Below, in pieces: positions 14,631-27,527 of a DNA stretch of 64,000 bases (its first letter is position 1; the number at the start of each line of letters is the position of its first letter). The notes beneath the pieces were generated by a model. The model worked only from the letters and a program-made list of their open reading frames with translations. It did no database searches and was not told where the DNA came from. The stretch lies in NCBI GenBank assembly GCA_902769255.1, contig CACXOM010000015.1:1-64000 (forward strand), read 5' to 3'. The translations under genes and the position numbers were made by a program. The stretch comes from Oscillospiraceae bacterium (GTDB lineage Bacteria; Bacillota; Clostridia; Oscillospirales; Acutalibacteraceae).

Positions 14631-16685
14631 TTACAAAGTAAATTCCGCTTTATAAGTGCACAGCGAATCGGTACCGACAAAAACTTCAAATTCGCCTTTT
14701 TCAACAACATATTCTAAATTCTCGTTATAAAAGCCGAGATTATCATAAGGCAAATCAAATTCAATTTTCTTGCTTTCGCCACGTTTTAAAAAAACTTTTT
14801 TATAGCCTTTTAATTCACGAACAGGGCGAACTTTTGAAGCGAATTTATCGTGAATATAGAGTTGCACCGTTTCATGCCCGTCGACTTTGCCGACATTCGC
14901 AACTTTTACGCTGACTTTCACAAAATTTTTCTGTTTTTCAAGTTTTAAATTTGAATATTCAAAGTCAGTATAAGAAAGTCCTTGGCCGAACGAGTAAACA
15001 GGTTTTACTCTGCCGTCGTCATATTTAGAAGTCCACGGCGCAGAGTTGGACGATGCAGGTCTGCCGGTGCTCATGTGGTTGTAATAAGAAGGACATTCGC
15101 CCGATTTATAAGGAAAATTTGTTGTAAGTTTTCCGTAAGGGTTAAATCTGCCGAAAATAATATCCGCCAACGCTTCGCCCGCTTTAGTGCCGAGTTGCCA
15201 CGCTTCAATCACCGCGTCGCTATCCTCATCAAGTTCAGGAATGCACATAGGTCTGCCGTTATATAGCACCGAAATAAACGGAATTTTGCTGTTTTTTAAA
15301 TATCTTACAGCCTTTTTTTGCGGTTTTGACAATGAAATATCAGCATAAGAATGGGCTTCACCGCTCATAGACGAATTTTCGCCGAAAGTCGCTATTATTA
15401 AATCGGCGTTTGCTGCCGCCGCTTTAAACTCTTGCTCGTCAAAATCTTTTTTTACTCCGTAACATTCGGCATAATTAACGCCCTCTTTTTCAAGCGCGCT
15501 TTTGAGTGTTACCGCATATTCGTCTTTACCGTAAAAAGCCCAGCATCCGTAGTTTTCACTTATCTTTGCACCGAGTTCTCCGATAAGCAAAATGTTTTTA
15601 AATTTGTTTTTATTTATCGGCAAAACGCCGTTGTTTTTTAACAAAACTGTTGAGTGCAACGCCGATTTTTTCGCAAGGTTTAAATGTTCTTTTTTGCAAG
15701 AAATCGCCGCTAATTCTTTTTCATCACAATAAGGATTGTCAAAAAGACCGAGCGCAATTTTTAACCTTAAAACATTTCGCACCGCATTATCAATATCTTC
15801 AATTTTTATTCTTTTTTGTTTTAATAATTCTTCTAAAAAATCAATATATGAGCGAGATATCATATCAACATCAACGCCTGCGTCCAACGCGTTTTTGGCG
15901 GCTTCAAGAGAATTTGCCGAATAGCCGTGATTTACAGTTTCTTCAATTGCCGAAGCATCGCTTACAACAACGCCCTCAAAACCCAAATCTTCACGCAAAA
16001 GCGACTTTAAAAGTCGCTTATTCGTTGTTACGGGCACGCCGTTTATATCGTTAAACGAAGTCATAACAGAGGCGACACCTGCGTCTATTGCATTTTTAAA
16101 AGGCGGCAAATAAACATCGTAAAGTTTTGAAAAACTCATATCGACCGAATTATAGTCTTTTCCGCCCTCGCAAGCGCCGTAAGCGAGAAAATGTTTTGCA
16201 CAACAAGCAATTTTTTCCTTGCTTGACAAATCGTCGCCCTGATAACCTTTTACTTTTCTTTCGGCGTAACGCTGGGCAAGAAAAGTGTCTTGCCCCATAC
16301 TTTCGGCAATTCTTCCCCAGCGTGCATCACGCGAGATATCAATCATAGGCGCAAAAATCCAGTTAATACCTGCGGCGCGAGCCTCTTTTGCCGAAACAGT
16401 TGCTGTTTGTTCGAATAATTCATCGTCAAAACAGCAACTTTCAGCAAGAGGTGTAGGAAAAACCGTATTAAAACCGTGAATAACATCACAACCGATAAGA
16501 AGTGGAATATGTAATCTTGACTCTTCAACCGCTATTCTTTGCAAACGATTTATTTTTTCGGGTTCTGCAACCCCGAGCATAGAGCCTATTCGCCCCGCTC
16601 TTATTTCATCTTCGTTGCGGTCGAAAATATCGCCTTTTTGCGCGCTTTCATATTCTTTTAAAGTAATTCTTCCCGATTCGAGCAT
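14631..16685 (-). CDS. GH3 beta-glucosidase-type enzyme, main portion (5' end out of frame)
   Basis: 684 residues covering nearly all of a family-3 glycoside hydrolase: the (beta/alpha)8 domain, with HIPLLIGCDVIHGF, KGYQGDD, CAKHFLAYGACEGGKDYN, and the nucleophile region GVVVSDASAIEE; the second alpha/beta domain; and a C-terminal fibronectin-like domain (LSYTDFEYSNL...VFVGTD). There is no signal peptide, so it acts in the cytoplasm, probably on imported cello-oligosaccharides. The first 50 or so residues lie in another frame (16658-16840); the two parts join perfectly if one A is added to an A7 tract at 16684-16690. Internal ATG 16685 alone would lose the N-terminal helix. Confidence 0.85.
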   Translation of the reverse strand: MLESGRITLKEYESAQKGDIFDRNEDEIRAGRIGSMLGVAEPEKINRLQRIAVEESRLHIPLLIGCDVIHGFNTVFPTPLAESCCFDDELFEQTATVSAKEARAAGINWIFAPMIDISRDARWGRIAESMGQDTFLAQRYAERKVKGYQGDDLSSKEKIACCAKHFLAYGACEGGKDYNSVDMSFSKLYDVYLPPFKNAIDAGVASVMTSFNDINGVPVTTNKRLLKSLLREDLGFEGVVVSDASAIEETVNHGYSANSLEAAKNALDAGVDVDMISRSYIDFLEELLKQKRIKIEDIDNAVRNVLRLKIALGLFDNPYCDEKELAAISCKKEHLNLAKKSALHSTVLLKNNGVLPINKNKFKNILLIGELGAKISENYGCWAFYGKDEYAVTLKSALEKEGVNYAECYGVKKDFDEQEFKAAAANADLIIATFGENSSMSGEAHSYADISLSKPQKKAVRYLKNSKIPFISVLYNGRPMCIPELDEDSDAVIEAWQLGTKAGEALADIIFGRFNPYGKLTTNFPYKSGECPSYYNHMSTGRPASSNSAPWTSKYDDGRVKPVYSFGQGLSYTDFEYSNLKLEKQKNFVKVSVKVANVGKVDGHETVQLYIHDKFASKVRPVRELKGYKKVFLKRGESKKIEFDLPYDNLGFYNENLEYVVEKGEFEVFVGTDSLCTYKAEFTL

Positions 16686-16840
16686 TTTTTTAGCTCATCT
16701 TTAGAAATTTCAAATGCCCCCACAGGCGAAGAAGCAGACTGATTAAGTTGTCCCACTTTTTCTTCAAGTGTCATTTTGCAAAGCAGTTTTTCTATTTTCT
16801 TTTCTGTTTCTTTGTTTAACTTTTTGCTTTTTAAATGCAT
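16658..16840 (-). pseudogene. GH3 enzyme, out-of-frame N-terminus
   Basis: Encodes the start of the GH3 protein: KKIEKLLCKMTLEEKVGQLNQ, the classic first helix of GH3 beta-glucosidases, to ISKDELKK, then runs out of frame at the A7 tract. ATG 16840 is preceded by AGGTG at good distance; a GTG at 16852 is in frame too. Together with 14631-16685 it makes one normal-length GH3. The interruption could be a sequencing indel, a true mutation, or a slippage site. Confidence 0.8.
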
Positions 16841-16864
16841 TAACTTTTTCACCTGTGAAAATAA

Positions 16865-17770
16865 TTACTTTTTAGTTTTAACAGTTATTTTTTTATAAGA
16901 GGTGTAAAACTTTTTACCGTTTGTTTTTACAAACGCTCTTATTCTCAAATAGTATTTTTTGTTCTTTTTAAGGTTTTTTATAGTAATTTTATTTGAACTT
17001 GAAATTTTAACCTTTTCTTTTTTACCGTTTTTTACAGAATATTTCACTTCATATTGCTTTGCGCCTGCAACCTTGCCGATATTAAGAACTATTTTGTTTT
17101 TAACGGCTTTTTTGCTTAGTTTTGCAATTTTTTTAGCAAGAGTGGTAACTTTTAAAACGCTTGAATAATCTGACAAAAATGTTGTATTTCCAACGGTTGC
17201 GCAAGGAATTATTTTGTATTTATAAGTTTTTCCTCTTGCAAGAGTATCTGAAAAACTGTCAGAAAAAACGGTTTTTAAATATGCGTAGCCCCCCGAGTTT
17301 GTCGCTCTGTAAATTCTGTAGCTGTCGGCATTCGCCGCTTTATCCCAAGTAAGTTTTACCTTGTTTACGCAAGTAAACACCGCTTTAAAACCATTTGGAC
17401 TGCCGATATACGGCTTTGATATAACTGTGGTGGAAGTTGTTTTTGCCAAAGTGCTTAAAGGCTGAGTAGCTGTTGTGTTATAATTTTGCGTTTGAGTTGT
17501 TGTTGACGGCTTGGTTGAAATGGGCGCAACAGTTGTAACGCTAATGCCTTTTTGCGCATTATCAATCAACGCTGAAACAATTGAAGGGTAAGCGATTTGA
17601 TAAGTTGAACGGTCAATTAAACAAAACGCATCTTCACCGCTTTTGCTTGCGACAGTTGTACCGTTATCCCACCAAATTGCTTTAATTCCGTATTTATTGC
17701 AGTTTGTTATAACAGTTTTTGCATAGTCTGCTCTTGCATCGGTATTATTTTTGTTAATTCTTTTGTTATT
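16865..17770 (-). pseudogene. GH5 cellulase-type C-terminus plus fibronectin-type region (remnant)
   Basis: Reading continues without stop from about 17770 to 16865. The first 75 or so residues are the tail of a GH5 catalytic domain: INKNNTDARADYAK, then YGIKAIWWDNG, then AFCLIDRSTYQIAYPSIVSAL, all typical of the last barrel strands of clostridial GH5 cellulases. After that come a Ser/Thr/Pro-rich linker, an FN3-type domain starting near GSPNGFKAVFTCVNKVKLTW, and a lysine-rich second beta domain like those at the end of the scaffoldin. The catalytic acid and nucleophile are absent because the rest of the barrel is missing upstream. Confidence 0.75.
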
Positions 17771-19083
17771 TTCGGGTCGGGATTGTTGTTTGCATATTTT
17801 ACCGCATTAGCCATTTGAGTCGAATAGTCATACTTTTCGCCTTGCGCTTTAAGCGGTTTATGATCCTGCGTTTCCTTTACTCTGTTTTCATCTTCAATTT
17901 TGCCCGATTTCCAATAAGAAGACTGATACTGAGGTTGTGATTTTTCAAATCCGCTGTTTATTTGCAACTGATATCCGCTTGAAGATAATTTTGAAGCGGT
18001 TTTATAATCTTCAATATATTTTTTGTCGCCCGATACCTTTGTGCCCGAAGATTTATTGTTTTTATATGTATGATTTTCGAGAGAATATCTTTGATAATAG
18101 TCGCTGAACAAAAAGTCGATATTTGACGGATTGTTACCGTAGGTTTCATCGAGCGCTTCTTGTTTAAAATCGAAGAAATGATAGCCCGCATATTCATAAT
18201 CGTCATTGCCTGATTTTGCGGTGGTTGTTGTGTTTTGAGTTGCTGTAGTAACTTCAACGCCTTCGGCAACTGTGTTTATTGAAGAAATAAAAACTTCAAC
18301 ATCTTTCATTACTCTGCTTGTAAGCGTTTTGTTTGTAACATCAACATTTTCATTGCCGAGATTATCAGAGCAATAAACTTTACCGTCTTTTTCCGTTTTT
18401 TTATCATAGTCATAATATCTGCCGTCTGCCTCGCAGTATTTCCAGAAATTTTGAATACTCAATTTAATATGCGAAACTGTGTTTAAATCAATTTGCGAAA
18501 CATCAAATATTATGTTTTTTATATCGCCCGATTTTACCCAAGTTTTATTGAGCGTTTTAACTTCGCCGTCAAACATAAAAAATTGCAATTCAAATTCCGA
18601 TGACATTTCTTTATCTTGAGAATCGTTAAGTTTTACAATATTTAAAGTCAAATATGCTTTTTTGGAGCCACCTTGCTGATTTGCGGTTACCAAGCCTTTG
18701 TTAAACTGGTCTATATCAAAATCATAATAAAGAGTCAACGCTTTTGAAGACACTTCGTTAATGTTTTTAAAATAAACATCGCCTACTTCGCCTGTTTTTT
18801 TGTATTTTGAGGAATCATAACCGCCTGCGGCGCTGTATTTTACCGTGGTAGGATGACCCGGCCAAACCTTATCATATTCACCGCGATATTTCATCATCAG
18901 CACGCTTTTATTTGCTGATTCGGCGACGGGCTGTTGATAAGTTTTTAATTTTGGCGAATTGTCTTTATAGGCTATTCCTGAAAATTCAAGAGTCGCCTCG
19001 GTATATTCAAACTGATACAAACTGATTATTATGCTTTGAACATTATTTAAATTTTCAAGTGTTTCATCATCAAAATCAACCAA
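17707..19083 (-). pseudogene. Decayed secreted glycoside hydrolase gene, central portion
   Basis: A 458-residue open stretch, the middle of a broken gene. It holds a beta-rich module (about residues 1-270, probably carbohydrate-binding; I cannot name the family), a TTATQNTTTTAK linker, and a second module that ends in KYANNNPDPKITK. There the reading leaves the frame, and the next recognisable sequence is the GH5 tail in another frame. The core of the GH5 barrel, several hundred residues, is not present in any frame, so this is an internal deletion, not just an indel. The 5' end is also out of frame with 19047-19253. Confidence 0.7.
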
Positions 19084-19693
19084 TTGAACTCTTTATCTTT
19101 AAACGGTTGATATGCTTTTGCGTAAACACTTTTTAAACTTGAACTTTTCAAATAACTTGTATAAGATTGTTCATCAACAACTATTGTACCTGTGTTTTTA
19201 AAACGGGTATAAACTCTTATTTGCGTATCTTTAAACAAATTATCTTTTGACAATGATTTTGAAAGAAAAAACGATACATTAAGGGTGTGAGATGTGTTTT
19301 TTAAATATTCGCTTTTTTATTTCATCGGTAATAGGAACTTCAAGATTTACGCCGTAAAGTATCGAAGGCTTTTGAAAGAGTAACCGAACCGTCATCATTA
19401 TAAGTTACCTTTGCACCTGAGGTGGTGTTTTCTTTCTCGTAATTGCCGCCGTTTGCAATCGGCTGACCGAGCAAAGTTGACATTTCGTCGCAAGTGAGCA
19501 ATTTGTTTTGCGAAGATGATGAAAACTTAATCACATAATCATCTGTTGATTTTTTTGTAGTTTCTGCTTGTGTTAATGTTGTGCCGTTCAGATTATCTGT
19601 CGAATCGTTTTCATTTGCGTTTGCTAACAATGCGATTTGCAACATAATAACAATCAAAAGCGCAAAACTTAAAACAATTTTTATGTTTCTCAT
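19047..19693 (-). pseudogene. Decayed secreted glycoside hydrolase gene, 5' portion
   Basis: Starts at ATG 19693 with a good signal peptide (MRNIKIVLSFALLIVIMLQ) after an AAGAGG site. The frame is lost near 19355 (FDTL then YGVNLEVPITDE), lost again at an A6 run near 19290 (IFK then NTSHTLNVSFFLSK), and again near 19088 (KDKE then QLVDFDDETLENL). Splicing the pieces by eye gives a continuous beta-type secreted protein leading into 17707-19083. It begins 20 bases after the GH9 gene, so it was the second gene of that operon. Confidence 0.7.
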
Positions 19694-19713: not shown

Positions 19714-21741
19714 TTAGTTTTCGCCGTCAAGATTTACAATATAGCCGAATGCGAGTATTGCCGAAGAATTCCAATAAACGCAAACTTCGTTGCAAGCGTA
19801 GTTATCGTGATTATCTTCATAAAAATGTCCGTTGTTATAAGAGCCGCCTACCATAAAGCCGACAGCCGGAGTGTAAAGGCCGTATTTTACACGCAAATAG
19901 GCCGAAGGAGCGTGGCAAATGTCTTTCGGCGTGTCGCTGCCAAACCCTGTTATATAAGATTTATTTACGGCGTTTCTGCCGAGAATGTAACAAACCGCAT
20001 TTCTTATCGCTTTTTCATAATTATGCGTTTGATTTACAAAGTCAACAATCGCCATTGTTTTAAGTTTTACGCAAACAATTTGGTTAGAACCCCAGCCGTA
20101 TTGAGTTGACATTTCTATAACATTGTTATATCTGTCGTTATTGCTGATTTTTAAATTATTGTCGGCAGAAGTTGTTAAGGTTGCAAGCACCGCTTGTTTT
20201 ACCTCGCTGTTTGCGCCATTTGCCATAAGATAAGCAAAAGAGCCTGCCCCGCCGATATTATAAGCGGAAATTTCGGTAAGGGTAAAACCTATTTCGCCGT
20301 TTATTTTTCTGTTATATAAACTAATTACATCTTCATTATAAGTTTGCTCGCCGGTTGTTCTGAACAATTCGCAAGCAGCCCACCAAATGTCGCCCCACGC
20401 TTTTGAATTGTCGCCGTAAGAGCCTGCATTTATTACAGGATATTCTGTTTCATTGGCAAAGCCTATATGCGCTTTCGCATTTTCCTGATTTGCTTTTACA
20501 TAAGTGTAAGCGCTTTTTGCCGCCGCCAAACATTCTGTGGCAAAATCGGGGTCAAGTGTGGCAAAAACTCTTGCACACATTGCAGCCGCACCCGCAAAAC
20601 CTGCGGTTGATTTTAATGTTTCGTGAGAAACATATAAACCGCTGTTGTTAAAATATTTGTCTTGGTCGGGGCGGTCGCCGTAAGAAACAAACTCTTTGGT
20701 AGCAATTCGCCAATAAACACCGCCGCTCCCTTTATTTTGCATTTTAAGAAGCCATTTCATTTCGTGTTTCGCTTCTTCGAGCAAATCGGAGTTGCTGTTT
20801 GGTATTACTTTGCAGTCGGCACTATCTCCGTACATTTCATAGGTCATCAATAAATCGGCAACAACTTGATTTGCAGGGGTGGTATATCTGCCGTAATCGC
20901 CTGCGTCGTGCAAACCGTAGCAAAAATCAGAAGCTTTTGCAGTACCGCTTTGAATATATTTACCGTAAGTTGCGCTGTTTTCATCGGTATCTAATTTGTT
21001 TAAAATATAAACCGGCGTATCACCGCTGTGGCAAACATCGTGTTCAAAATGTTCGCCGACAACGCTTTTATCTAAAGCAACTCCGCAACGGTTATAATAA
21101 AGCGCGGTTATTAAAGCTTGTTGCACATCTTTATAAGGATTATCTTTAATTTCAAATGTATAAGAATAGCCGAAAGGCGCAAAAACTTTATAAGTTCCTG
21201 GTGTCTTTACCGCCGAAAAATCAAATGTAGAAACATTTTTATCGGTAATATCATCATATTTTCTTTTGGTCGAAAGTGCCGAATAAACAACGCTGTTGTC
21301 TGATTCTTTAACAACATAGCAACGAGCGTTTGTTATTTGCGAATTTGCCTTTAAAACGCCCGAATCTTCGGTTAATTTGGCGCACTTTTCGGAATTTGTT
21401 TCGTAACCTATTTGGTTTATTTGAACATCGCTTGTAAACGCATTGTTATAACTTGCGGGAATATTATTTTCTAAATCTTCAAGCCCTGCAAGTTTTTTTC
21501 TTAAACACAAAATGTCAAGCGCGCCGACTGTTGAATCATTATTATAATCTGCCGCATCTAAATCAATGTTGTCTTTATAGCCTACAAAGTATCTTCTTAA
21601 CAACAGCAAGTCTTTTACATCTACAATTCCGTCGGAATTTAAATCTCCTTTCAAATTAGCAGCGCCCAAAACAGCGGTACCGATATTCGGCACTGCGAAA
21701 GAAATAATTACAACTAAAATCATTGATAAAAATCTTTTCAT
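19714..21741 (-). CDS. GH9 cellulase with N-terminal dockerin
   Basis: 675-residue secreted cellulase. Order: signal peptide (1-27); type I dockerin (about 30-90) with two calcium-loop repeats, GDLNSDGIVDVKDLLLLRRYF and AADYNNDSTVGALDILCLRKKL; an Ig-like CelD-N domain with QINQIGYETN; and the GH9 (alpha/alpha)6 barrel with DAGDYGRYTTP (catalytic base Asp pair) and the C-terminal NEVCVYWNSS, where the Glu is the catalytic acid. It hydrolyses beta-1,4-glucans outside the cell and should dock onto a cohesin. An N-terminal dockerin is less usual than a C-terminal one. First gene of a minus operon with the GH5 remnant and GH3. Confidence 0.95.
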   Translation of the reverse strand: MKRFLSMILVVIISFAVPNIGTAVLGAANLKGDLNSDGIVDVKDLLLLRRYFVGYKDNIDLDAADYNNDSTVGALDILCLRKKLAGLEDLENNIPASYNNAFTSDVQINQIGYETNSEKCAKLTEDSGVLKANSQITNARCYVVKESDNSVVYSALSTKRKYDDITDKNVSTFDFSAVKTPGTYKVFAPFGYSYTFEIKDNPYKDVQQALITALYYNRCGVALDKSVVGEHFEHDVCHSGDTPVYILNKLDTDENSATYGKYIQSGTAKASDFCYGLHDAGDYGRYTTPANQVVADLLMTYEMYGDSADCKVIPNSNSDLLEEAKHEMKWLLKMQNKGSGGVYWRIATKEFVSYGDRPDQDKYFNNSGLYVSHETLKSTAGFAGAAAMCARVFATLDPDFATECLAAAKSAYTYVKANQENAKAHIGFANETEYPVINAGSYGDNSKAWGDIWWAACELFRTTGEQTYNEDVISLYNRKINGEIGFTLTEISAYNIGGAGSFAYLMANGANSEVKQAVLATLTTSADNNLKISNNDRYNNVIEMSTQYGWGSNQIVCVKLKTMAIVDFVNQTHNYEKAIRNAVCYILGRNAVNKSYITGFGSDTPKDICHAPSAYLRVKYGLYTPAVGFMVGGSYNNGHFYEDNHDNYACNEVCVYWNSSAILAFGYIVNLDGEN

Positions 21742-21820: not shown

Positions 21821-21884
21821 GTGCACGAATTCTAACTCGCTGTGCATTTTTTTGAATGAAATCTATATTTGGATTGATTATAAT
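21821..21884 (+). promoter_or_regulatory. Scaffoldin promoter with paired GTGCAC/GTGCAT operator
   Basis: GTGCAC at 21821-21826, 15 bp, GTGCAT at 21842-21847, then a T run and, exactly 31 bp on, a -10 box TATAAT at 21879-21884. There is no good -35 at the proper distance, as expected for an activator-dependent promoter. The same arrangement, inverted, sits at 26525-26588. The 21-bp period of the two half-sites (two helical turns) is typical of AraC-family dimer sites. Confidence 0.7.
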
Positions 21885-21957
21885 GAAAATGCAAAAACAC
21901 ACTTGATTTTTGCGTGATGAAAAAATAATTTTAATCATAGGAAGGAGAACTGCAGTA

Positions 21958-24120
21958 ATGAAAAAAGTTCTTATATCATCATTCATTCTCATTTTGTCAT
22001 TGATGATTCTTATTTCATCAATAGGCGTTTCGGCTGATTGGGATACAAGCCAAATTGTTGTTCCCGAAACAGCGGCTACATTAAACGGAGGTTGGGGCGC
22101 TGGCGCGAGTAACCCTACTTATTCCTCTAACCAAAAACTGTTTACTTTAAACGCAAAAGCAACAGCCTCAGGCTACACTCAACAGTTTCAATGTTTAATT
22201 TACATTTCAAACTTCTCAACCGTTTTATCGGGCGCTAAAAAAGTTGCGTTTGATTTTTACCCCTCTTTTACCAACCAAAACGGAGCCGACAGTTGCTATA
22301 TGAAATATTCTTTTGACGACAGCACTTGGTCGAGCGATTTTGATAATCCTTTAAAGAGTAATGAGAAATACACATTAATTCTTGATTCTTCAAGCATTGC
22401 TTCGACTGCAAAGTTCATTCATTTGCAATTCCAAAACTACGGCAACCAAGTTTCATCTGATGCTGTTATTATGGGTACCGCACCTTATATTTATGAAGCA
22501 GGCACACCTGATAACACAACAAGCTCTCAAAGTTCGACAGACTCAACAAGCTCGACTCAGGGCTCAACAAACCCTACTCAATCAGGAGAAGGATTTGACC
22601 CCTCAACAATTACTTTCCCCGAAACTGTCGTTTCAATGACAAAAGGCTGGGAGGCAGATTGCTCTCTTATTGTTGCGGTAAACAAAAAATATGCAACATT
22701 TACATCGAATACTACCTCTTCGGGATACAGACAGCAATTCCAAGGTTACATTAATTACACAAATTTCAGCAATTTATTTAATTCAACATCTCAAATTGCT
22801 ATTGATTTTTATCCGACATTTGGCAACAAAGAAAATTGGGATAAAAACTGCTACCTTAAGTATTCGTTTGACCAGCAAACCTATTCGGGCGAATATTCAA
22901 ACGCATTAAAATCAGGCGAAAAATATACATTAGTAATTGATTCAAGCGACATTCCGACAAGCGCAAAAGCAATTCATATGGTTTTCCAAAACTACGGAAG
23001 CGCTTTATCTGACGACGCTCAGATTATTGTTTCGGCTCCTTATGCTTACGGCGAAGTTGTAACATCTCCTTCAACCGAACCTTCAACTCAAAGCCAAAGC
23101 AACCCTACAAATACTACAATCGAGCCTCCGACACTCAACACCTCAAAAGCATATTTCAAAATTAATAATGTTAAAGTTAGCGGTGGCGACTTGACAGAAG
23201 TTCCGATTACAATCGGCAACAACCCCGGAATTTTTATCGCAAAACTCAATATCGCTTATGACAACACTTTATTAACTTTTAAAGAAATAAAAGCAGGCGA
23301 TGTTTTCGGCAGTGATGAAATTTATTACGGCACAACAATTCCCGGCAAAATTAACATTGCTTTTGAATCAAGCGATTTAATGAACAACAACTCCAAAAAC
23401 GGTACTGTTGCAAAATTGGTATTCCAAATTAATAAAAATGCCGACACAACAACTACCCTGTTAAACTTTACCGATTACAGCGAAAATGATTACATTAATT
23501 GCACCGCCGAAACCGTACCTTTCACATTTGGCAACGGAATTGTAAGCATTACAAAAAAAGTGCCGACTTTGGCAGCTCCAAGTGGGGTAAAAGTTACTTT
23601 AAACAATAACAAAAAAGCCACTATTACTTGGAAAGCTTCCGCCGATGCAAAAGGTTACGAAGTTTTCAGAAAAGTAAATTCGGGTGCTTGGAAGTCATAT
23701 AAAACAGTATTAGGCGGCAGTGTTAAATTTGTCGATGGCTCGCTCAAAGCAGGTAAAAAATATACCTATAAAGTAAGAGCGTTCTCATCTACATTAGTAA
23801 GCGCTTTTTCAAGCAATTCAAAGACAGTCGTAACATATAAACTTGCGCAGGTTAAATCATTAAAAGCAAAAGTTAAAGGCAAAAAAGTTACTTTAAGTTG
23901 GAAAAAGGTTACGAGTGCTCAAAAATATGAGATTTTTGTTTCAACCAAAAAATCTTCGGGCTTTAAAAAAGTTAAAACCTTAAAATCAAAAAAAGCGACT
24001 TTAAAATTAAAAGCCAAGAAAAAATATTATATTAAAGTAAGGGCTTTAAGAACAGTAGGCACCGCAAAACAAAAAGTTTATTCAAAATACTCTGCAGTAA
24101 AAACAGCAAAAGCAAAATAA
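21958..24120 (+). CDS. Scaffoldin-like protein with one cohesin domain
   Basis: 720-residue secreted protein. Order: signal peptide (1-26); two similar beta modules (about 27-184 and 216-370) sharing SGY.QQFQ and FDFYP/IDFYP, probably carbohydrate-binding; Ser/Thr linkers after each; a cohesin domain (about 400-540) with VPITIGNNPGIFIAKLNIAY, LTFKEIKAGDVF and the late GNGIVSI strand; then two lysine-rich FN3-type domains. There is no sortase motif, dockerin or C-terminal membrane anchor. It should bind one dockerin enzyme and carry it to polysaccharide. ATG 21958 follows GGAAGGAG; an in-frame start at 21910 lacks one. Divergent from the dockerin-GH9 gene. Confidence 0.88.
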   Translation: MKKVLISSFILILSLMILISSIGVSADWDTSQIVVPETAATLNGGWGAGASNPTYSSNQKLFTLNAKATASGYTQQFQCLIYISNFSTVLSGAKKVAFDFYPSFTNQNGADSCYMKYSFDDSTWSSDFDNPLKSNEKYTLILDSSSIASTAKFIHLQFQNYGNQVSSDAVIMGTAPYIYEAGTPDNTTSSQSSTDSTSSTQGSTNPTQSGEGFDPSTITFPETVVSMTKGWEADCSLIVAVNKKYATFTSNTTSSGYRQQFQGYINYTNFSNLFNSTSQIAIDFYPTFGNKENWDKNCYLKYSFDQQTYSGEYSNALKSGEKYTLVIDSSDIPTSAKAIHMVFQNYGSALSDDAQIIVSAPYAYGEVVTSPSTEPSTQSQSNPTNTTIEPPTLNTSKAYFKINNVKVSGGDLTEVPITIGNNPGIFIAKLNIAYDNTLLTFKEIKAGDVFGSDEIYYGTTIPGKINIAFESSDLMNNNSKNGTVAKLVFQINKNADTTTTLLNFTDYSENDYINCTAETVPFTFGNGIVSITKKVPTLAAPSGVKVTLNNNKKATITWKASADAKGYEVFRKVNSGAWKSYKTVLGGSVKFVDGSLKAGKKYTYKVRAFSSTLVSAFSSNSKTVVTYKLAQVKSLKAKVKGKKVTLSWKKVTSAQKYEIFVSTKKSSGFKKVKTLKSKKATLKLKAKKKYYIKVRALRTVGTAKQKVYSKYSAVKTAKAK

Positions 24121-24201
24121 GTTAATAAACTTAAAAAACCGCTCGTTAAACAAGTGGTTTTGTTTTGCGCAAAAATGCGTGTTTTACTTATTTTATTCAA
24201 G

Positions 24202-24236
24202 TTTAAAGACGGTCATTTTAAATGACCGTCTTTAAA
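24202..24236. terminator. Long perfect inverted repeat after the scaffoldin gene
   Basis: Sixteen-base perfect stem TTTAAAGACGGTCATT / AATGACCGTCTTTAAA with a three-base loop. It lies between the scaffoldin stop and the end of the minus-strand small gene, so a bidirectional terminator is the simplest reading, though the T tract is short. Confidence 0.6.
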
Positions 24237-24266
24237 TAGGAGTTTATGAAAATTTCAACTAATAAA

Positions 24267-24404
24267 CTAAAATTTATCATCTTCATAAGGGTCGTTTGCG
24301 CCCTCGTTTGAAAATGTTGTTTGAGTAGGCTCTTCAGAACTTTCTGCTACCACATCATTTACAGAGAGTTTTTCAAATTCTATTTTAATTTCTTCAAATT
24401 TCAT
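24267..24404 (-). CDS. 45-residue acidic peptide
   Basis: Short open frame M-KFEEIKIEFEKLSVNDVV to a very acidic tail ending PYEDDKF, with no cysteine, signal or membrane segment. It is supported by a strong AAAGGAGG site at 24415-24422 spaced nine bases from ATG 24404, which overlaps the stop of the surface-protein gene just upstream, so translation is probably coupled. Function unknown; the arrangement (small leader-like acidic peptide behind a secreted protein) could be a peptide precursor, but no maturation gene is nearby. Confidence 0.6.
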   Translation of the reverse strand: MKFEEIKIEFEKLSVNDVVAESSEEPTQTTFSNEGANDPYEDDKF

Positions 24405-24420
24405 TTAACTTTGCCTCCTT

Positions 24421-25521
24421 TTAAGCGTTAGCCCATTCGGTAACCATTGCTTTTTGAGCATCGTTTAAGTATGAAAATGAATAAGATTCAATATCGTTTA
24501 TCCACGCATTTGCAAGTGTTTTTAATGAACGAGCGTTATCGCTTTGTTCAGCATAATAAGTTGCTACTAATTCATCGCCGTCAAATACTTTTACATAGCC
24601 TCTGCCGATAAAATCACGAGTAATATTTTTATTAAGGTTTACTATAATCGAACCTGCAATTTGATTATCTTCATAATAACCTGTTGTCGGAACATCAGTA
24701 TAATTGCCGTTATCAACATCAAAAGTTAAAGCGTTTGCGCCTAACAAATTAACCGGTGCAATAAGCGTTCCCATTTGAACGGTGTAACCCGCATCAGTTG
24801 TTTGCGAAATAGCAGAAGCATTAACCTCGGTAATAAAACGAATACCGTTTCTTGCGCCAATTCTAAGCGATGCGCCTTCAAGCATTTCGGCGCTGTCAAC
24901 TGCAACTGTTGTAAGTTCTAAATCGTCTGTTACAACAACGCTGTCGCCTGCTTTATAACGATTTACACCGTCGAAATAGCCGATAAAGCCGTTTGCATTG
25001 CTTGCAGGCAATTCAAATGAATCGCCCTCGTCAGCGGTATCAACTTCAACACCGTCAATGCTTATCGAATATGAAGGAGTTGCAGCCGCAGGGCCTACAT
25101 AAGTTGCAGTCTCACCGTCAGGTACTGCGTCGAGCGATTCAAAAATAAACGCTTTAAAGAACATTTGACCGCCCGAAGTAACTGTGAATTTAACATCAAC
25201 ATCGGTATCGCCTGTAACTACTAAATAGCCTATATCGTTTCTGCTTAAAGCAGCGCCTGTGTCGCCACTCTTATCTTGTTTGTAATTTGTGCTGATAATT
25301 TGAGCGTCTGCCCCTTCGGTTGCAACCGAAACTTGCGCTGCCGCACGGCTTTGATGTGAACGGGCATAAGTATAAAAACTATAAATACCCTCTTCTAAAC
25401 TAAATGTAAACTGAACAAAATCGCCTGCTGCATAACCGCTCGGTCTGCCCGCCGTAATACAATGACCTGCTGAGGCATCGTAAAATGTACCGACATTTTT
25501 TGACCAAGTTGCGTCAGAAAC
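24421..25521 (-). pseudogene. Surface protein, C-terminal portion after an in-frame stop
   Basis: Directly in frame with 25522-26493 and separated from it by a single TGA (25522-25524); reading through gives one protein of about 690 residues. This part begins VSDATWSKNVGTFYDASAG, a beta-sandwich module that looks carbohydrate-binding (about 120 residues), then a spacer, then a module starting LRIGARNGIRFITEVNA that I know only as a recurring domain in clostridial surface proteins. An internal ATG 25164 exists without a convincing ribosome site. It ends TEWANA with no anchor. Confidence 0.75.
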
Positions 25522-26493
25522 TCACGGAATGTTTGCCTTTGCGGCGGTTTCGTTGTTGTAGGTAACATCTCCGCTCGGAACAGTTATTGAATTATAAACG
25601 GTATAAGGGTCGCCGTCGTCTGCAATTTGGTTTGTTGCTGCGACATATTTATAAGTTTTTGCTTTTAAATAAACAAAATCATCTTGTTTTGTTTCATGAC
25701 ATCTTGAACACTCATATTCTGTATAACCGGGTTGAGAAGCAGTAGCCTCAACAACTGTACCTGTTGCTACCCAATTATGACCCAACGCGGGGTTAAGTTC
25801 ATCATAAACTTTAACTGTTTCGTTGCAATCAGGGCAGGTGTATTCGTCGTAAGCTCCCTCGTCGCAAGTAGCGGCAACTGTTTTAACGAAAACTTTGTTT
25901 TCATGTTGACAGTTTTCCTGATAAACAAATTGAATTTTTTGAATGTAACCTACTGCGCCGTCGCATGGATTTTTACCGAACGATAAGTAAGTTGCTTCGG
26001 GGAATTGTGAAAAATCAACAGCTGTTAAATCAAAAACAAATTCAAAAGTTTCGCCAGTTGCGATTGTAAAGTCTGCATCTGTTTCAATTGCGCCTAAATC
26101 ATAAGCCTTTGCGTCTGAAATTATAGGATAACTCCAGTTTTCATATCTTGCAAGACCTGTAGACTGTCTGTTTACGCTGATACCTCGTGTACCTTCATCG
26201 CTTGCAGTAACTTTAAACTTAATACCAATTAAGTTGTCCGCTTTCCAATCAGCAGGAAGTTTAATTTTAATCGCTTCATAATTTGCGTTACAGGTAAATC
26301 TAACTGCTTTTTCTTCGTTAAAGTCAACAACTTCAAACGAAGCGTTATTGGAATATGCTATTGTGGTTGCTGGTTTTTGGTCATAGTCAATAACTGTTTC
26401 TGTATACTCACCAAGGGCATTTGCAATGTAAGCAATATTAAAATAGGAAAAAGCCATTAACAATGAAATGAGAATTGCTATAGTTTTCTTCAT
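25522..26493 (-). CDS. Secreted surface protein, N-terminal portion ending at TGA
   Basis: 323 residues: signal peptide (1-26), a beta-rich module (about 30-190), then a Cys-rich stretch with CQHENK, TCPDC and ECSRC, the treble-clef-like CxxC repeats seen in many Ruminococcus and Clostridia surface proteins, with the spacer LNPALGHNWV. It stops at TGA between CCG and GTT inside an otherwise continuous reading frame. ATG 26493 follows AAAGGAGG. Divergent from the PocR/AraC regulator and preceded by the GTGCAC/GTGCAT operator. Substrate unknown; probably polysaccharide attachment. Confidence 0.8.
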   Translation of the reverse strand: MKKTIAILISLLMAFSYFNIAYIANALGEYTETVIDYDQKPATTIAYSNNASFEVVDFNEEKAVRFTCNANYEAIKIKLPADWKADNLIGIKFKVTASDEGTRGISVNRQSTGLARYENWSYPIISDAKAYDLGAIETDADFTIATGETFEFVFDLTAVDFSQFPEATYLSFGKNPCDGAVGYIQKIQFVYQENCQHENKVFVKTVAATCDEGAYDEYTCPDCNETVKVYDELNPALGHNWVATGTVVEATASQPGYTEYECSRCHETKQDDFVYLKAKTYKYVAATNQIADDGDPYTVYNSITVPSGDVTYNNETAAKANIP

Positions 26494-26524
26494 TACGAAA
26501 ACCTCCTTTAATATTGGTATGTTA

Positions 26525-26588
26525 ATTCTAACTTATATCAACAATAAAAACATTAAAAAATATGCACGGTGCATTTAAATATGTGCAC
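26525..26588 (-). promoter_or_regulatory. Surface-protein promoter with paired GTGCAC/GTGCAT operator
   Basis: On the minus strand: GTGCAC (26588-26583), 15 bp, GTGCAT (26567-26562), a T-rich run, and exactly 31 bp further the -10 box TAGAAT (26530-26525). This equals the scaffoldin promoter in motif, spacing and T-rich context. An extra GTGCAT on the plus strand (26569-26574) makes a tight palindrome with the second half-site. The regulator gene's own -35 lies 8 bp to the right, so the site could also give autoregulation. Confidence 0.7.
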
Positions 26589-26595
26589 AGCATTA

Positions 26596-26624
26596 TTGAC
26601 AAGTGCTATTTTATTTGTTAGAAT
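26596..26624 (+). promoter_or_regulatory. Promoter of the PocR/AraC regulator gene
   Basis: TTGACA, 17-bp spacer, TAGAAT; start codon 25 bases downstream after a GGAGGTG site. Confidence 0.85.
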
Positions 26625-26648: not shown

Positions 26649-27527
26649 ATGAGATTGAATATTATTGATGAAATTTGCGATTACATAAGATTTTTAAATA
26701 CCACTTATGACATTGAAGTAACTATTCACCCTTTGGGGTGGGACGATTATTTGTATCACACAAGAGCGGTTGAATGTAATGTTCATAAAAATCTTTTTTG
26801 TCATCAAATGAAAATGTTTAGCGATGAGCAGAACAATTTGTGCTATAAAGAGCAATATAATTGTTTTAAGCAATGCAACGCCAACGACCCGTTCTATTAC
26901 ACCTGTTTTGCAGGCGTTACACAATTAATTTTTCCTATGTATAATAAAAACTCAAAAATAGGTTATGTGGCAGTCGGAAATTTTTATGACGACAGAGAAG
27001 AATCTTTAAATAAACTTAAATCGCATTGCAAAAAATACAATATTAAATATGAAGTTATAGCGCCGCTTTTTGATATTAGTTTAAAAAAATCAAAACACGC
27101 AAAAACTCTTATTTCCACACTTGTAAGCCCGATTTTGTCAATGATAGAAATTGCTTATGCCCAAGACGAAAAAGTGCCGACTTACGACGACGACAACAGT
27201 TTTTATTTGCGTATGATTTCTTATATAAGCACAAACTATACTTCAAACATTACTATTGAATATTTGGCGACAAGGTCAACCTGTTCGGTTTCTTATTTAA
27301 GCCATTTTTTCAAAAAGCAAAGCGGAATGTCGTTGCCCGAATATATTAATTTTTTACGAATTAACGATGCAAAAATATTTTTGGAAATGACCAATATGAG
27401 TATTCAGGAAATAGCCTATTCGCTCGGTTATTCAAGTTCAAATTATTTTTCAACCGTTTTTAAAAATCAATTAGGCGTTTCTCCTAAACTTTACAGAGAA
27501 AACCTTAAAAAAGCAAAAAATCCTTGA
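26649..27527 (+). CDS. PocR-type sensor / AraC-family transcription regulator
   Basis: 292 residues. The N-terminal half resembles the PocR ligand-binding domain: conserved cysteines in LFCHQ, LCYKE, CFKQC and TCFAG, then IGYVAVGNFYDD. The C-terminal 100 residues are an AraC-type double HTH with YISTNYTSNITIEYLA, YLSHFFKKQSGMSLPEYIN and the signature IQEIAYSLGYSSSNYFSTVFK. PocR/AraC proteins activate catabolic genes in response to a small ligand. ATG 26649 is chosen because GGAGGTG lies eight bases before. Its position between the surface gene and tRNA, and the paired operators nearby, suggest it controls the cellulosome island. Confidence 0.85.
   Translation: MRLNIIDEICDYIRFLNTTYDIEVTIHPLGWDDYLYHTRAVECNVHKNLFCHQMKMFSDEQNNLCYKEQYNCFKQCNANDPFYYTCFAGVTQLIFPMYNKNSKIGYVAVGNFYDDREESLNKLKSHCKKYNIKYEVIAPLFDISLKKSKHAKTLISTLVSPILSMIEIAYAQDEKVPTYDDDNSFYLRMISYISTNYTSNITIEYLATRSTCSVSYLSHFFKKQSGMSLPEYINFLRINDAKIFLEMTNMSIQEIAYSLGYSSSNYFSTVFKNQLGVSPKLYRENLKKAKNP

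Follow-up and report, generated by a model that had tools for sequence, protein, structure and literature searches.

The window analysed here is a stretch of 64,000 nucleotides from an Oscillospiraceae bacterium (contig CACXOM010000015.1), and all positions, like those of the original prediction, are counted over this whole stretch. It carries two pairs of operator-like half-sites, each in front of a promoter, and next to the second pair a gene for a predicted one-component regulator of the PocR-AraC type. Site 1, GTGCAC GAATTCTAACTCGCT GTGCAT (GTGCAC-N15-GTGCAT; 21821-21847, plus strand), lies between a dockerin-GH9 gene (19714-21741, minus strand; Pfam GH9, CelD_N, and Dockerin_1) and a divergent scaffoldin-like gene (21958-24120, plus strand). 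The latter encodes a secreted protein of 720 amino acids with one Pfam Cohesin match (5.9e-13), an fn3 match (9.1e-11), and, as judged by eye, a signal peptide as well as a pair of similar modules at the N-terminus. Site 2, GTGCAC ATATTTAAATGCACC GTGCAT (26588-26562, minus strand), lies between a gene for a secreted surface protein (24421-26493, minus strand), which is a single frame interrupted once by an in-frame TGA, and the regulator gene (26649-27527, plus strand; 292 amino acids; PF10114 PocR 1.2e-8, HTH_18 5.1e-20). Neither piece of the surface protein matched a Pfam or NCBIfam family. The scaffoldin-like and surface proteins are both secreted and probably handle fibre.

The architecture claimed in the original prediction, GTGCAC-N15-GTGCAT followed after 31 bp by a -10 box at two places on opposite strands, was borne out. 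The scaffoldin promoter has the -10 box TATAAT (21879-21884, plus strand) 31 bp past site 1, and the surface-protein promoter has TAGAAT (26530-26525, minus strand) 31 bp past site 2, which is N32 after the second TGCA. As had also been noted, the half-sites repeat with a period of 21 bp at both places, and the second one is followed by a T-rich run. The GTGCAC half-site is a palindrome by itself. The statement that the scaffoldin promoter lacks a -35 box at the right distance needed a slight correction because a weak one, ATGAAA (21856-21861, plus strand; 4/6 match, 17-bp spacer), is present. For the surface-protein -10 box, the promoter scan returned no promoter-like pair. The same scan assigned the regulator gene a separate promoter close to consensus, TTGACA-17-TAGAAT with a TG ahead of the -10 box (26596-26624, plus strand).

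The motif was then searched for in the whole genome of the organism (35 contigs totalling 1,791,303 bases, with a completeness of 99.71%). Exact GTGCAY-N15-GTGCAY occurred at two places only, both inside the window. With one mismatch allowed, 11 further places were found; a check for TANNNT at distances N30 to N32 detected it in two of these, both times at N30. When up to two mismatches were tolerated, the window had no more matches than shuffled sequence (6 versus a mean of 8.64), and the half-sites by themselves are therefore poorly informative. The unusual feature is the exact match together with its geometry.

A direct alignment of orthologous promoters was impossible: no close orthologue of the regulator was found, and what matched it in the genus (three other genomes) extended over its DNA-binding part only. 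The surface protein had no match at E 1e-6 in the same three genomes, and six distant regulator matches from a scan of genome contigs, all confined to the DNA-binding part, were left unused. Relatives were also sought more widely. The best full-length relatives among 300 family genomes were 27-36% identical to the regulator, and profile searches found matches in 15 order-level genomes out of 394 and in 36 class-level genomes out of 391, the organism's own genome being counted in each. Upstream of the family relatives, TTGCAAAT-like repeats were present 21 bp apart. Around the family homologues, the GTGCAY pair was not kept in its literal form (best agreement 11/12, at one of 29 loci, L067), and only the TGCA core with 21-bp spacing was common to these relatives and the window. 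From the family relatives and the order-level set (without L153, which is the same as L056, L155, which is the window, and the truncated L160), the rule TGCA-N17-TGCA-N32-TANNNT, read toward the divergent gene, was derived.

This rule was applied to the 300 bp upstream of 43 class-level regulators that were fetched after the rule had been seen. These represent 43 of 50 listed rows, L153, L155, L195, and four partial rows having been dropped, and they include two pairs of near twins (L186/L187 and L190/L191). A TGCA pair at exactly 21 bp was found for 12 of the 43 held-out regulators, compared with a mean of 0.46 and a maximum of 3 in 500 first-order Markov randomisations. The next commonest spacing occurred four times, and the other spacings in the range 5-60 summed to 41; from the spacing count, regulators with less than 150 bp upstream (1/22 in training and 1/39 others) were left out. 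The full layout, with TANNNT at exactly N32 toward the divergent gene, was present in 10/43 (random mean 0.008, maximum 1 in 500 randomisations) and never pointed at the regulator (0/43). Coding sequence of the same genes yielded one TGCA pair and no full layout. After collapsing at 50% identity, 8 of 25 clusters still carried the full layout; in the training set, the TGCA pair was seen in 5/21 and the N32 box in four of those.

Regulators with at least 200 bp of upstream DNA were divided at 200 bits against the clade profile, which placed 50 above and 52 below, the latter including 11 from the class set and 3 from the training set. The TGCA layout accompanied 13/50 of the upper group versus 1/52 of the lower, and a looser layout with a TGC core accompanied 20/50 versus 1/52. 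Only L191, which scores 199.7 bits and has a near twin in the clade member L190, carries it below 200 bits. In sequence terms, the layout is specific to this regulator clade and nearly absent from other PocR-AraC proteins.

When the rule was applied to 158,506 bases of the organism's own genome (the window and eight further stretches), it matched the two window sites exactly and nothing else, whereas first-order Markov sequence is expected to hold 0.05 such layouts per 64 kb. A position weight matrix built from 14 sites of other genomes, with L187 and L191 excluded, ranked site 2 first (21.5) and site 1 second (17.2) over about 190 kb of own sequence; the fourth match, at C1:956-1020, scored 13.6. 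The sites, their rarity, and the class-wide tie of the regulator clade to the exact layout are thus computed directly. Recurrence in held-out relatives upheld the proposed common architecture and its AraC-type activator geometry, and the assignment of the sites to the adjacent PocR/AraC gene gained strong comparative support from the held-out test at class level.

The regulator combines the parts expected of such a protein. Its C-terminal double helix-turn-helix is of the AraC type (HTH_18 72 bits, cut-off 33.6; HTH_AraC 64.9 bits, cut-off 26.6), and a PocR sensory domain (PF10114) covers residues 48-163 with 35.3 bits (cut-off 23.9). The protein scored 88.3 bits against NF047788, the NCBIfam PocR equivalog for the pdu/cob activator, below the 500-bit cut-off. 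An AlphaFold2 model had a mean pLDDT of 92, and its best Foldseek matches were AraC-type DNA-binding domains. The listed matches fit well over the DNA-binding half only (29 of 29 solved-structure matches start at profile position 131 or later), and no ligand is proposed for this reason. Across 33 clade members, the PocR part has invariant H46, C51, and C65 and nearly invariant H27 and C86, and one may speculate that these residues form a metal or redox site. A comparison of the base preceding TGCA with recognition-helix residues gave no clear correspondence.

Taken together, we consider it likely, with a probability of roughly 85%, that the regulator encoded at 26649-27527 activates the scaffoldin-like promoter and the divergent secreted-protein promoter through the 21-bp TGCA pairs. 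The gene product would be a one-component activator of the AraC family in which PocR serves as the ligand-binding domain, and two AraC-type DNA-binding domains, most likely those of one dimer, would occupy the TGCA half-sites 21 bp apart. If transcription is taken to start 7 bp past the -10 box, the first bases of the half-sites fall near -70 and -49, and the bound activator would recruit RNA polymerase to promoters with a good -10 and a poor -35 box. A single regulator would in this way drive two promoters 4.7 kb apart, that of a single-cohesin scaffoldin-like gene and that of the divergent secreted-protein gene. Binding, activation, the dimer, a ligand, and the start sites are what we infer from the sequence. 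Activation beside polymerase is proposed because of the poor -35 box, the fixed distance to the -10 box, and the direction toward the target gene. With start sites estimated in this manner, the position of the half-sites fits class-II activation. The 21-bp TGCA pairs with a -10 box at N32, in the window as in relatives, also agree with a trait of AraC/XylS regulators, namely paired direct-repeat half-sites that lie upstream of a weak -35 box or overlap it.

This geometry resembles that of the araBAD promoter. There, araI1 and araI2 lie 21 bp apart at about -70 and -50, nearly the layout seen in the window, and the AraC-type DNA-binding domain is common to both systems. The window regulator differs from AraC in that it has a PocR sensor instead of an arabinose-binding domain, a TGCA core, and different targets. 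According to the excerpts of the cited papers on which this and the following comparisons draw, AraC-arabinose on araI1 and araI2 recruits polymerase (PMC4760080), and PocR of pdu/cob is a ligand-responsive activator in which a PocR domain is joined to an AraC-type DNA-binding domain, with two known binding boxes described as 20 and 48 bp at Pcob (PMC11264322). The window regulator shares this pairing of domains, but its NF047788 score lies below the cut-off for the pdu/cob protein. The nearest experimental precedent is XydS/XydR of Clostridium cellulolyticum, whose AraC-type response regulator controls cellulosome-related, CBM-bearing genes and binds upstream of two separate loci, at -237 to -599 from the start codons and with no defined half-site in the text at hand (PMC3572039). 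XydS/XydR is a two-component system, whereas the window regulator is a one-component protein with a PocR sensor. In Caldicellulosiruptor bescii, the promoters of AraC-family carbohydrate regulons are preceded by tandemly repeated, widely spaced elements, which are read as activator sites; regulators and targets differ, and no PocR regulator was seen in the excerpts of that study (PMC8579813).

Several observations weigh against this reading. TANNNT also occurs at N27 in 6 of the 12 held-out pairs, the next commonest distance, and the looser core reaches up to 7/50 at other distances (N27, N37, and N40). Even with that core, 30 of 50 clade members are without the layout. The window half-sites start with GTGCA, whereas most relatives have TTGCA or ATGCA, and the regulator is just 25-35% identical to the relatives that were used. 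The third match of the weight matrix, at C1:16243-16307, scored 15.0, near the 17.2 of site 1; it is without TGCA, and it lies upstream of a dockerin gene but reads away from it. In addition, no 21-bp TGCA pair was present in the upstream DNA examined for three scaffoldin-like stretches of the genus (L150, L151, and L152), such pairs occurring only inside or downstream of the scaffoldin-like matches. This absence upstream of distant scaffoldin-like genes in three genomes is evidence against conservation within the genus.

Finally, the organism's own genome has 16 further matches to the regulator, mostly in the DNA-binding part, so that the sites might in principle be recognised by a different AraC-type protein. 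That the sites are repressor operators, or are bound by such a different AraC-type protein or by a palindrome-binding repressor, was judged improbable. An extra ATGCAC at site 2 forms, with the second half-site, a 13-bp palindrome (ATGCAC-C-GTGCAT), which speaks in favour of this reading; site 1 is without it, and the palindrome-operator reading was dropped on this account. Moreover, what relatives conserve is the 21-bp pair beside members of this very clade, upstream of the -10 box of the divergent gene. A mere chance likeness, or a functionless duplication of one upstream region, is very improbable. The motif was, to be sure, picked after the window had been seen, and the 70-base stretches at sites 1 and 2 agree at 44 positions, 26 of them among the 49 outside the motif. 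Against this stand the low Markov expectation given above and the recurrence of the same rule in held-out genomes, where the sites have a median pairwise identity of just 0.39 outside the motif.

A further possibility extends activation of the two promoters and is compatible with it, namely that the regulator also controls the GH9 gene, other dockerin enzymes, and itself. We regard this wider regulon as unlikely. Ten Dockerin_1 matches were found in the own genome, one being the window GH9, and a search of the 400 bp before each script-assigned start codon found no site for any of the other nine genes (best half-site score 9/12). Among six cohesin matches, only the window scaffoldin-like gene carries a site (0/5 for the others). 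The GH9 gene, divergent from the scaffoldin-like gene, starts 80 bp from site 1, and its control had been called probable. At N32 from site 1 on its strand, however, the hexamer is ACAATA, which is not a -10 box, and its best promoter, TTGCAA-17-TATTAT, places the -10 candidate (21780-21775) at N41. Control of GH9 is thus possible and unsupported beyond adjacency. For the regulator itself, site 2 adjoins its promoter, the -10 box of which falls at N31 from the outer TGCA; this is suggestive of autoregulation, although no layout facing the regulator was found in any held-out relative. The site starts 4-36 bp from the regulator start codon in 13 of 16 relatives that carry it (about 60 bp in the window), which suggests negative autoregulation in those 13. 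Thus, a local regulon of two promoters under the neighbouring regulator is very likely real as far as sequence comparison can tell, and to call it a regulon of the cellulosome, as the original prediction did, is overstated.

The usual target in relatives is a different one. An open reading frame (ORF) resembling FAD_oxidored lies on the strand opposite the regulator at 42/51 clade loci versus 12/53 others, and at 13 of 14 site-bearing clade loci (six loci were checked with Pfam). This pairing of a layout-linked PocR-AraC gene with a divergent FAD_oxidored gene is seen across the class, upstream of L061, L161, L180, L186, and other clade members. At the exception, L217, the divergent gene encodes a protein that combines SLH, golvesin, and GH16 domains, with more GH16 and GH95 genes beyond; this is the nearest analogue of the window. 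Such a clade-member operator before an SLH/golvesin/GH16 protein, with GH16 and GH95 nearby, lies on stretch L232 1-16000 (G706:C51), from a genome of another family, where a regulator of the same type is thus paired with targets related to surface polysaccharides. The window's own genome has 11 FAD_oxidored matches, none on the window's contig, and no TGCA layout was found around these loci within 1.5-kb flanks. The target therefore appears to have changed rather than widened.

Several genes of the cluster look broken, whereas the GH9, scaffoldin, and regulator genes look open. The surface-protein gene is open from 26493 to 24421 except for the lone in-frame TGA at 25522-25524 (minus strand), which may be a nonsense mutation, an assembly error, or a case of recoding. 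A GH3 gene (14631-16852, minus strand) is broken over two frames, 16658-16852 and 14631-16685, and downstream of GH9 what is apparently one secreted-protein gene (17707-19693, minus strand) is spread over three ORFs of different frames.

In the excerpts of the literature on PocR/AraC repeats, FAD oxidoreductases with AraC-PocR, cellulosome AraC proteins, and Ruminococcus scaffoldin promoters, neither this operator code nor a PocR regulator of a scaffoldin was described, and the part of PMC3162504 at hand contained none of the site terms. It is possible, though somewhat less likely than not, that a class-wide PocR-AraC clade, whose strict operator code is normally directed to a divergent FAD oxidoreductase, has here been rewired to a scaffoldin-like and a secreted protein, which would tie the scaffold to a metabolite sensed by PocR. 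To our knowledge, except in a few model clostridia, little is understood of how scaffoldin genes are turned on. The present prediction specifies a one-component regulator together with its sites and promoters down to single bases, which makes binding, start sites, and inducer directly testable. Beyond this organism, the operator code would allow targets to be assigned for a regulator clade of which we found no description and whose members lie mostly beside FAD oxidoreductases.

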